Shown here: positions 43,703 to 48,501 of the stretch, one piece after another
Numbering within the stretch: the stretch's first letter is position 1
Layout of the letters: every line of letters starts with the position of its first letter
Source: Chromatiaceae bacterium
GTDB lineage: Bacteria > Pseudomonadota > Gammaproteobacteria > Chromatiales > Chromatiaceae
DNA: 64,000 nucleotides
NCBI GenBank assembly: GCA_007693535.1
Contig: REDK01000099.1
Span: forward strand, 1 to 64,000
Direction: 5' to 3'
The notes under the pieces: generated by a model
The model's input: the letters and a program-made list of their open reading frames with translations, nothing else
Databases searched by the model: none
What the model was told of the DNA's origin: nothing
Translations under genes and position numbers: made by a program

Positions 43703-45091
43703 ATGACCAACCTATCCGACGGTTCCCACGACGGTTCCCACCAAGAACCCCCGGACCTCGGCGCCTGCCTGCAGCAGCAGGCCCCCATCGAGTCGCCAGT
43801 GCACGATGTCGCTCTGGCCCTGGTAGAGCGGATCGCCGACGTCGACGACGACCGCCGCCGCAGTGTCGGGCTGCTGCAGAAGGCCTTTGCTGCACATCGT
43901 GACGAGACCTTCAATCGCTTCCGACGCACCCGTAACGGACTGCTGACAGCCCTGGCGCTGGTGGTGGCGCTGGGAGTGGTCACCACGCTGTGGCTGGGGC
44001 TGGAGCTGGCGCAGCAACGGACCCGCGCCAGCACTGCCATCAACGCGCTGCAGGCGCAGATCGTCGACCTGCAAGCCGTAACCGGCCGGCCTGCCGATGG
44101 GCTGAGCGAGCGGGTTGATGGCATCGCCACAGCCTTGGCCGAACTGACGCGCCAGGTGGAGGCGATCCCAACCGACGCGGTGGCCGCCCTGCGCGGCGAC
44201 CTCGATCTACAGCTTGCGGCCCTGGCGACGGCACAGGAACCGATGCTGGCCGATGCGGTGGCAAGCCAGGTCGCGCAAGCGCGTGCGGACCTAGAGGCCG
44301 GCGTCCTTGCCAGTATCGAACAACTGCGCGAGCAGTTGGAAGCCATGGTCGGGGCCGCGCCGGACGCCGCTTCGCAGGTCGACCTGAGCGCCGACCCGCA
44401 AAACGGCGATGCAGCCCTCGCCGCCACGGTCAGCCACCAATTGCTCGACGAGCGCCTGACCCAGATCGAGCGGGAGCACCAGCAGTTGGTCGCGGCCCTG
44501 GCGATGACCGAGGGAACCGAGCGCGCCACCGCTGCAGTCACACCAGCGGATGCCGTCACCGCAGACGCGGCACCGACGGCAGCGCCCGCTACCGAGGCTC
44601 CCGCCCCCCCCGAGGATGCACCCCCAGATGCACCCCCAGATGCACCCCGAGATACCCCCCAGGACGCACCCCAGACGGCGGTCGAGCTGGCCGCCGACGC
44701 CACAAGCGATGCGCCCAGACCAGATGCCGAACCCGAGACCATAGCCGCGGCAACAGCAGGATCATCACTCGCTGCCCCATCGGCTTCCGACGGTTCTCTC
44801 GTCGTCGGCGATCGGCTCTATGCGCTGCAATTGATCGGCTTTTACAGTCGCGACGAGCGCGATGTCTTCATCGCCAACTATCCACTACCGCCCGCGGTCT
44901 ACGGGCGCGAGGAGATGTTCCGCGGCCGGCCCTGGTTCGTCCTGATCCACAGCCTCTATGCCGATCCACAGGAAGCCAACGCGGCGATTGCGGAGCTGCC
45001 GGAGGTATTGCAAAAACTCAACGCCTGGGTGCGACCGCTGAACCCGGAAACCGAGCTGGACGTGATCATCACTGCCAGCGCGCGGCCCTGA
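43703..45091 (+). CDS. Membrane-anchored coiled-coil protein with SPOR-like C-terminal domain
   Basis: 462 residues: about 75 cytoplasmic residues, one membrane helix (LLTALALVVALGVVTTLWLG), a coiled coil with alternating hydrophobics (about 105-280), an Ala/Pro/Asp-rich linker and a compact C-terminal domain (RLYALQLIGFYSRDERDVFI, RGRPWFVLIHSLYADPQEAN). The last part looks like a SPOR domain, which binds denuded peptidoglycan at division sites, as in DamX. The linker carries a 12-bp tandem repeat (DAPPDAPPDAP). Exact function unknown. Confidence 0.75.
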   Translation: MTNLSDGSHDGSHQEPPDLGACLQQQAPIESPVHDVALALVERIADVDDDRRRSVGLLQKAFAAHRDETFNRFRRTRNGLLTALALVVALGVVTTLWLGLELAQQRTRASTAINALQAQIVDLQAVTGRPADGLSERVDGIATALAELTRQVEAIPTDAVAALRGDLDLQLAALATAQEPMLADAVASQVAQARADLEAGVLASIEQLREQLEAMVGAAPDAASQVDLSADPQNGDAALAATVSHQLLDERLTQIEREHQQLVAALAMTEGTERATAAVTPADAVTADAAPTAAPATEAPAPPEDAPPDAPPDAPRDTPQDAPQTAVELAADATSDAPRPDAEPETIAAATAGSSLAAPSASDGSLVVGDRLYALQLIGFYSRDERDVFIANYPLPPAVYGREEMFRGRPWFVLIHSLYADPQEANAAIAELPEVLQKLNAWVRPLNPETELDVIITASARP

Positions 45092-46241: not shown

Positions 46242-47261
46242 CTAAATTTCGATGCCCTCGGCATCGATGACGCGCGCTAGAGCCGCCTCCATGGTTGCCC
46301 GGGCGTGGGCGCTGGCGGCATGCAGAAAGGCATGCAGAGCGGCATCGTCGGCATTGCGATGCTCGCACTCCTGGCTGTAGTTCTCGAAGGCGACCAGGCT
46401 GGACACAAGCTGGACAAGATGGTGCGGGCATTCGCAGCGCACCGTCGGCGAGGCAGCGGCGATGCGGGCCAGGGCGGCGGTATCGTAGCGGCGTCGCGGC
46501 AGCGGCCCACTCAGGTCCATGTCGTCCAGAAGTTCGGCCGCCTCCGGCGCCGCGTGGGCGCGATGAGCGGTGGCACACCAGCGCCGCACCTCGGCCACAT
46601 CCGCCGGTGCCCGCCGGGCGCTGACCCGCAAGGTCCGCAGGCGCTCCAGCACCGCGCGGCTGGCGAATTCGTAGATCACCACCGCCCGCGCCGCCCTGGA
46701 GCAGGCCAGCAGGTCGGTGATGCGCTGCACTTGATCCGGATGGATGCTTGGGCATTCCAGTAGCAGCAAGTCTAGCTTCAGCCCGGCCGCCTCCTGGCGA
46801 AAGCGCGCCTCGTCCTCGAACACCCCAACGAACTCCACCGCGCCGGCCATGGGCTCAGCCGCTGCGGCGGGCCCGACTGAGGTCGCCAGGGTTAGCATGG
46901 CCGGCAGGCGTGCACCCAGGACGCCGACTCGGCAGGGCACACTTGGCTCCGGGTCAAGCGGCCGGGCACCAAGCCCGCGCACCCGCTCGCGGAGATCAAC
47001 AAGAGACAACTGCGCCACGTGGCTGATGGCATCGCCGTTGTCCACCAGTCGCTTGATCAGGGTCAGACGTGCCAAGTCGTCGGCACCGTACAGGCGGGTA
47101 CCGGCCTCGGAGCGGAACGGGGTCACCACCGCATAGCGGCGCTCCCACACCCGTAGGGTATCCGGCGGGATCCCGGTCAACCGGGCAACCGCCCCGATCC
47201 GATAGGTCTGACCAGCCGGTGGCGTCTCGGGGTCGATCAATGGTCTCTCCTCGCTGCCCAT
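46242..47261 (-). CDS. MerR-family regulator with B12-domain-like middle and Cys/His C-terminal domain
   Basis: 339 residues. The MerR winged helix is clear (YRIGAVARLTGIPPDTLRVW, ERRYAVVTPFRSEAGTRLYG). A Rossmann-like middle domain follows (about 105-230) in the position of the cobalamin domain of CarH/LitR regulators, but lacks the D/E-x-H-x-x-G cobalamin motif. The C-terminal helical domain contains CECPHHLVQLVSSL and YSQECEHRNADD, which could bind a metal. The ATG at 47261 is taken because it begins just before the conserved part. The signal it senses is unknown. Confidence 0.8.
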   Translation of the reverse strand: MGSEERPLIDPETPPAGQTYRIGAVARLTGIPPDTLRVWERRYAVVTPFRSEAGTRLYGADDLARLTLIKRLVDNGDAISHVAQLSLVDLRERVRGLGARPLDPEPSVPCRVGVLGARLPAMLTLATSVGPAAAAEPMAGAVEFVGVFEDEARFRQEAAGLKLDLLLLECPSIHPDQVQRITDLLACSRAARAVVIYEFASRAVLERLRTLRVSARRAPADVAEVRRWCATAHRAHAAPEAAELLDDMDLSGPLPRRRYDTAALARIAAASPTVRCECPHHLVQLVSSLVAFENYSQECEHRNADDAALHAFLHAASAHARATMEAALARVIDAEGIEI

Positions 47262-47263
47262 GT

Positions 47264-47273
47264 TTTGTACAAA
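47264..47273. promoter_or_regulatory. Palindrome TTTGTACAAA, candidate MerR operator
   Basis: A perfect 10-bp palindrome stands directly before the merR-like start codon and 20 bp before the TTGACA of the divergent promoter. A second TTTTGT follows at once. A position between two divergent genes, one a regulator, suggests autoregulation. Confidence 0.4.
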
Positions 47274-47292
47274 TTTTGTTCTGGTCGAAACA

Positions 47293-47321
47293 TTGACAAA
47301 GCTACGATCGCGGCCTATTGT
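47293..47321 (+). promoter_or_regulatory. Sigma-70-type promoter for the divergent gene at 47485
   Basis: TTGACA, 17 bp, TATTGT: a perfect -35 and a -10 with four of six matches. It lies about 160 bp before the start of the secreted-protein gene. MerR-type targets usually have a 19-bp spacer; here the spacing is the ordinary 17. Confidence 0.55.
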
Positions 47322-47484
47322 TGACGCCGACGCTTGGTTAAAGCGGTGCATCGACAGACTCGCCGCGGCCTAGCACCGACGGGCATCGATCGACCGCCCG
47401 TCACCTACAAATAGTGGCTTGAACGGTAACGACCAAGTTTTGCACAGGTCAGGCGTTCGCAACCGACGCAAGAGGAGTGATCCC

Positions 47485-48150
47485 ATGCCCGCAACCACGA
47501 CCCTGCAGCAGTCCCCGCCGATCGACCATGGCCGCCGCCTGGTGGGCTCGGCGACAGCCTACCGGCGGCCGCGACTGACCGCCCTTGCCGCCCTGTTGAT
47601 TCTCACCGCGAGTGGCCCGATCGCCGGCGATTCGAAACAGGGCGATCTCGATCGGGCCAATCTCGACCAGGCCGACCTGGACAATCCCTGCACCCCCAAG
47701 AGCGCCTTCCGGGGCGCCCAACCAGCGACCGGGTCGACCAACGGACCAGTCATCTGGACGACCGGCCATACGGCCGCTCCAGATCGCAGCGCGCCCAGTT
47801 CGCTCCTGGCCCGAGCGCCCGCCCTGTCTTTCCCGGCCGCCGGCCCTGCCGCTGGTCACAGCCTGCTGGCCCTGGCTCGCCAGGCGAGCCTACCGACTCC
47901 ATCGCCCTGGAACGACCCGACCACCTGGAACCGGACACCGGCATCCGATCAGGCCGGCCGCGCGACCACCACCGGCCAGCTCAGTGCGACGCAACTGAAA
48001 GAGCGGCTCCACCGCTACCACGCCAACACCCTGCCGAGCGGAGTCCAACCGGCCGCATCGATCCCAACCGTCGCGCACACCTTGATCCAGACCTGCCGCG
48101 ATGACGCCCGATGGTCGGTACCGCAACACACCCCGACCGCCGCCGGCTGA
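47485..48150 (+). CDS. Predicted exported protein, unknown family
   Basis: 221 residues from the ATG at 47485, preceded by AGAGGAG. A hydrophobic stretch (LTALAALLILTASGPIAG, about residues 31-48) after a basic region reads as a signal peptide or anchor. The mature part starts with a short pentapeptide-like run (GDLDRANLDQADLDNP) and is otherwise low in order: Pro, Ala, Thr and Ser rich with only two cysteines. No family recognised. It faces the MerR-like regulator across a promoter region and may be its target. That it is a real gene rests on the ribosome-binding site, promoter and position. Confidence 0.5.
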   Translation: MPATTTLQQSPPIDHGRRLVGSATAYRRPRLTALAALLILTASGPIAGDSKQGDLDRANLDQADLDNPCTPKSAFRGAQPATGSTNGPVIWTTGHTAAPDRSAPSSLLARAPALSFPAAGPAAGHSLLALARQASLPTPSPWNDPTTWNRTPASDQAGRATTTGQLSATQLKERLHRYHANTLPSGVQPAASIPTVAHTLIQTCRDDARWSVPQHTPTAAG

Positions 48151-48210
48151 ACGATCGCCTGAATCCCACTCTCCCGACTCGACTGCCACAACTCTGCCCG
48201 AGTGACGCTC

Positions 48211-48501
48211 ATGAATACTCAGACCAGCCAGCCCCGCATCGCCAACGACTACATCGACATCGACCTGCCCCTGTTGCCTAACACCGACAATGGCGAAGAC
48301 GTGGCCCGGTTGGTCTTCGGCATCCTGGACGACGTTGCCAACCTGACCGCCGGTCGTGCCACCAGTCATCGGGATATCGTGCAGGCACTGAGCATCGCCA
48401 CCGCGGTGCGGGCGGCGATGGCCGAAACTGCCAGCCGCAGTGGCCAGCGGATCGCGCTAGACCTACTGGATGTGCAGATCGCCGATGCACGGATGAACTG
48501 A
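48211..48501 (+). CDS. Small acidic protein, unknown family
   Basis: 96 residues from ATG 48211 (GTG 48202 would add three). The sequence is protein-like: an acidic start (NDYIDIDLPLLPNTDNGEDV) and two amphipathic helices (ARLVFGILDDVANLTAG, IVQALSIATAVRAAMAETAS). No signal peptide or membrane segment. It lies 60 bp after the exported-protein gene on the same strand and could share its promoter. Function unknown. Confidence 0.5.
   Translation: MNTQTSQPRIANDYIDIDLPLLPNTDNGEDVARLVFGILDDVANLTAGRATSHRDIVQALSIATAVRAAMAETASRSGQRIALDLLDVQIADARMN

Follow-up and report, generated by a model that had tools for sequence, protein, structure and literature searches.

We identify in a purple sulfur bacterium a MerR-type regulator that, on our best reading of its sequence, is a new LitR/CarH variant in phototrophs with two conserved, uncharacterized targets encoded divergently from it. 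The locus lies in a 64-kb stretch of DNA (the window), whose genome belongs to a genus of eight genomes that takes in Halochromatium glycolicum, H. salexigens and Lamprobacter modestohalophilus, so that the source is a Halochromatium-type purple sulfur bacterium. The observed basis of this reading comprises homology, gene layout, a conserved promoter with a putative operator, and gene conservation.

The regulator (46242..47240, minus strand; 332 aa) probably starts at TTG 47240 rather than at an alternative ATG at 47258: a Shine-Dalgarno sequence, GAGGAG, lies 6 nt upstream of the TTG, and this start agrees with the N-termini of relatives. Facing it on the plus strand are genes for an exported, Ala/Pro/Thr-rich, low-complexity protein (47485..48150; 221 aa, with an N-terminal signal-like segment and a strong Shine-Dalgarno, AGAGGAG) and for an acidic protein with a predicted two-helix hairpin (48211..48501; 96 aa, pI 4.5, weak Shine-Dalgarno). 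A preliminary description of this DNA had listed the regulator, the two plus-strand frames, a promoter, a CECPHH motif and a palindromic sequence, and we recovered each of these at its place; its label of an undescribed system fails for the regulator, a type already described and homologous to the LitR/CarH family. Near the trio, the window also encodes a protein that resembles DamX and ends in a weak SPOR domain (43703-45091, plus strand).

A MerR-family regulator lacking B12-binding signatures

Among Pfam models, the MerR helix-turn-helix alone scored above cut-off (MerR_1, PF13411, 1.9e-16). The closest DNA-binding domains include those of CarH, MlrA and BluR, placing the N-terminal winged helix with that of LitR/CarH proteins. 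An AlphaFold model (pLDDT 90.7) starts with a winged helix, continues with a receiver/B12-Rossmann-like domain and closes with a helical C-terminal domain. The first of these (46986..47207, minus strand; AF2 residues 3-76, pLDDT mostly >90) resembles the DNA-binding domains of CueR and CarH and is directly followed by the receiver-like domain (46542..46943, minus strand; AF2 residues 91-224), which lacks the B12 motif and gives Z scores of about 11 against both receiver domains and CarH. Full-length Thermus CarH is the best PDB match of the model (Z 11.9), in a fold comparison that bears on its first two domains. The C-terminal helical domain (46257..46481, minus strand), the hallmark of the family, carries the CECPHH motif (codons 46419-46436). 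The model bears out the architecture proposed earlier, a three-domain MerR protein with a cobalamin-domain-like middle fold devoid of the B12 motif and a CECPHH end.

The C-terminal motif CECPxHL...FExYSxxC...DAxLH is common to relatives in Burkholderiales, other Gammaproteobacteria and Verrucomicrobia, and nine residues (C260, H265, F276, E277, Y279, C283, D290, R305 and E309) are invariant in 62 sequences. Judged by these features, the regulator belongs to a large MerR family that has this conserved C-terminal domain and no B12-binding domain. The gene was found in 8/8 genus genomes and 54/210 family genomes, with a dN/dS of 0.09 between H. glycolicum and a close relative.

Neither the B12-binding domains that mark class I LitR/CarH proteins nor the four-helix B12-binding_2 domain of class II LitR gave a Pfam match in the regulator at E values up to 1, and the NCBIfam CarH equivalog model reached 40 bits against a cut-off of 400. 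A true B12 regulator was rejected on the lack of a B12 motif or profile match and on gene neighborhood; a metal regulator was likewise rejected on profile scores and gene neighborhood, with no specific support for metal sensing. A related reading, in which the Cys/His-rich C-terminus serves as a sensor of metal or redox state and the regulator switches on the two genes as a stress pair independently of light, draws on the nearly invariant CxCPxH, C283 and H294, whose pattern resembles that of a metal- or cluster-binding site. We consider it unlikely, since the protein resembles metal-sensing MerR proteins in the DNA-binding domain only, its scores on NCBIfam metal-regulator models fall far short of cut-off, and the neighbors in other phyla are light or photo-oxidative genes, with no metal genes noted in recurrent clusters. 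Moreover, the CECPxH motif is degenerate in Thiocystis-group regulators (L088, L089 and L090), where the gene and its polyamine-transporter neighbor are kept nonetheless.

Probable relationship to class III LitR

The closest described relatives of the regulator appear to be class III LitR proteins, an assignment made through a related species, Burkholderia anthina, and through synteny. The B. anthina homolog aligns over its full length (34% identity, E 5e-42) and has the same C-terminal domain. Its gene lies among those for GTP cyclohydrolase (folE), a sigma factor, an SDR, DUF3429, FAD oxidoreductases and photolyase, with fasciclin, CFA synthase, DUF1365 and lipocalin genes further along the cluster; B. 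arboris has the same cluster. We take this folE-sigma-SDR-photolyase-CFA-fasciclin cluster to correspond to the class III LitR locus of B. multivorans, which, reportedly after Sumi et al. in 2018, contains folE2, litS, phrB2, cfaB and cryB. The LitR protein of that locus is said, in the same work, to absorb near 340 nm. This B. cepacia-complex homolog, set in its light-type cluster, has its whole architecture in common with our regulator.

Class III LitR proteins are reported to occur mainly in Burkholderia, to lack a B12 domain and to have a light-dependent spectrum (PMC9758184). The B. multivorans protein, as described there, resembles our regulator in its MerR-type DNA-binding domain, its lack of a B12-binding domain and its C-terminus outside known domains. 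In B. anthina, just upstream of folE, we noted an ORF similar to the middle domain of the regulator only (L178:4988-5740); it could pass for a sensor-only partner protein but is probably what is left of another copy of the regulator.

The neighborhoods set the Chromatiaceae apart. Of 67 non-Chromatiaceae loci, 47 have one or more light- or photo-oxidative-stress-type genes in the neighborhood, whereas this gene set occurs at no named Chromatiaceae locus; the signal of the regulator in Chromatiaceae may therefore have changed. Unlike class III LitR loci, those of Chromatiaceae lack any folE, CFA, photolyase or sigma-factor gene in the vicinity; the neighbors are the exported protein, the 96-aa protein or a polyamine transporter, and the host is a phototroph. 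In comparison with class I CarH, the regulator has no B12-binding profile match, its receiver-like domain comes straight after the DNA-binding domain, and its chain ends in the helical CECPxH domain. Class II LitR (Pseudomonas PmlR2/PplR) is B12-independent, as is our regulator, which differs in having no B12-binding_2 Pfam match and in that we saw no gene for a LOV partner next to it.

Two conserved genes face the regulator

In 32% of shuffles of this GC-rich DNA, a run of 221 codons or more stays open, and the case for the exported and 96-aa genes thus rests on conservation. Of the 210 family genomes in Chromatiaceae, 20 have a match to a profile built from the 96-aa protein, and in 15 of the 27 regulator-carrying genomes of Halochromatium, Thiohalocapsa and Thiocapsa the gene faces that of the regulator divergently. 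Its dN/dS is 0.04 (H. glycolicum versus a close relative). Five of the eight genus genomes do without it, so it is dispensable.

Homologs of the exported ORF occupy the same place in 6/8 genus genomes (the window included) and in one Thiohalocapsa. Scored against a profile of the ORFs of neighboring species, the window ORF reaches 15.5 bits, a value attained by 0/2000 shuffles (maximum 9.1). With dN/dS values of 0.32 in the closest pair (H. glycolicum versus a close relative) and 0.32 to 0.6 overall, its sequence is that of a conserved yet fast-evolving protein. The pentapeptide-like run noticed earlier is present as three units (DLDRANLDQADLD), although it occurs in this species only, is absent from the homologous exported ORFs, and is accompanied by no Pfam pentapeptide-repeat match at E up to 1.

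It is very improbable that the two frames stay open merely by chance in a GC-rich sequence. Such a reading would fit the lack of significance of length by itself in shuffles and the large variation of the exported ORF between species; against it, the 96-aa protein is kept at the same site in three genera under the low dN/dS given above, which already contradicts chance for this gene, and the profile score of the exported ORF lies beyond every shuffle. Both frames are accordingly real conserved genes, as the preliminary description had proposed, and of the refuting condition that it had set, the part on lack of conservation is contradicted.

Both proteins fall outside recognized families, as had been suspected: the 96-aa protein returned nothing above cut-off in Pfam or NCBIfam and nothing significant among PDB sequences, and the exported protein likewise lies outside known families. 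An AF2 model of the 96-aa protein (pLDDT 58, low confidence) places helices at residues 28-48 and 53-77, tentatively predicting a helical hairpin. A likeness to the spidroin N-terminal domain was rejected, with sequence matches at a non-significant E of 0.04-0.08.

Other Chromatiaceae loci and a few other Gammaproteobacteria carry more distant paralogs of this protein, apart from any such regulator. Some adjoin metG in distantly related genomes (L026, L194:5072-5392 and L195:2542-2862), and others (L021, L023) lie close to a ParA-like gene and a small conserved ORF. In one genome (G219, L196:3122-3733), a homolog sits beside an apparent 38-residue remnant of the DNA-binding domain of the regulator.

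A conserved promoter and a putative operator

A sigma-70-type promoter for the divergent pair lies between the genes (47293..47321, plus strand), with TTGACA at 47293-47298, a 17-nt spacer and TATTGT at 47316-47321. The TTGACA is aligned in 9/9 loci. Each of the 15 loci with the 96-aa gene retains the promoter, which has mostly decayed at loci that no longer have either target gene, indicating that it belongs to the target genes. The promoter proposed earlier is conserved, and the region around it, common to the divergent regulator and the two target genes, is likewise conserved among relatives.

Beside this promoter is a putative operator (47262..47294, plus strand) composed of two 11-bp direct repeats (TTTTGTACAAA TTTTGTTCTGG) and a weak pseudo-repeat that runs into the -35 box; the sequence at 47263-47281 is TTTTGTACAAATTTTGTTC. 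The repeat pattern occurs once in the window (0 expected), has one exact copy in the 4.16-Mb genome, and in a pattern search of the whole genome gave no more two-mismatch matches than the control. Across 97 non-redundant homologous upstream regions, TGTnYA half-sites recur as 11-bp-spaced direct repeats in 21, against 0.1 expected (200 shuffles, in which the highest count for any spacing was 3); the repeat units of Thiocapsa are TGTTCATGTTT and TGTTTATGTTT. The TTTGTACAAA sequence first described as a palindrome makes better sense as a single unit of the 11-bp direct repeat, and a palindromic operator was dropped in favor of these repeats. Diverse non-Chromatiaceae loci also show an enrichment of inverted half-sites, at spacings of 17 and 6.

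CarH binds tandem 11-bp repeats, one of which includes the -35 (PMC9304148, PMC8156234). By sequence pattern, the regulator likewise has a putative tandem 11-bp direct-repeat operator touching the -35, as does T. thermophilus CarH of class I, with TGTnYA rather than the TnnACA of CarH as its half-site; the spacing kept across the regulator family is that of CarH operator geometry.

Downstream, a conserved 5'-UTR element, CCAAGTTTTGCACAGG (47433..47448, plus strand), contains TnnACA and is a possible second operator site. At a similar position, CCAAGTTTTGnnCA is found in 14/17 Halochromatium/Thiohalocapsa loci, and in both genera a CCAAGTTTTGnnCAGG element lies ~140 nt downstream of the -35. 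No Rfam match was found for an RNA element between the regulator and the exported gene. For PmlR2, a pair of operator sites is described, the first at the -35 and the second in the stretch from start site to start codon (PMC9758184), and the repeats plus downstream element at our locus resemble this class II two-site layout.

Polyamine-uptake genes as alternative neighbors

In 18/41 Chromatiaceae loci, from several genera, the gene divergent to the regulator encodes a PotF-type polyamine-binding protein; at other loci of the family the regulator faces the exported protein, the 96-aa protein or both. At these 18 loci (L064:4440-5543 and 17 further ones, including Thiocapsa and Thiocystis), the PotF-type gene is followed by one for a PotG-type ATPase. 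The recurrence of this neighbor could mean that the main task of the regulator in Chromatiaceae is control of polyamine uptake, with the two small genes as incidental insertions. Two observations make this improbable: in Thiocapsa, the TTGACA promoter and the 11-bp repeats are present with the 96-aa gene and decayed where the transporter alone remains, and the PotF gene of the window genome lies on another contig.

Proposed mechanism and implications

We regard as reasonably probable that the locus is an autoregulatory, B12-independent module of LitR/CarH type and class III kind, with new targets in phototrophs. While the releasing signal is absent, an oligomer of the regulator would sit on the tandem 11-bp repeats beside or overlapping the -35, holding down its own gene and the divergent sigma-70 promoter. 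The signal, most likely near-UV/blue light or photo-oxidative stress, would act on the receiver-like and CECPxH C-terminal part, and release would allow the exported protein and the acidic, helical 96-aa protein to be made. In Chromatiaceae, the usual photolyase, CFA-synthase and sigma-factor neighbors would have been replaced by the two small genes, or in other genera of the family by the polyamine transporter. Repression and a light signal are what we infer by analogy, and oligomerization of the regulator and joint transcription of the two targets are presumed with them. The repeats sit mostly upstream of the -35, and activation could also be compatible with them.

Within this module, we more tentatively propose a phototroph photosensor of class III LitR type whose new targets are a secreted protein and an alpha-hairpin protein of a new family, with polyamine uptake in sister genera. 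If true, this would be a light-tuned module of an undescribed kind, and CECPxH would mark a new photosensory or redox domain. Collectively, our results would extend B12-free LitR-type regulators from heterotrophs to phototrophs and define for them a conserved C-terminal domain without a Pfam match together with a conserved putative operator, and the two small conserved targets may offer a handle on the light-sensing mechanism of this class.
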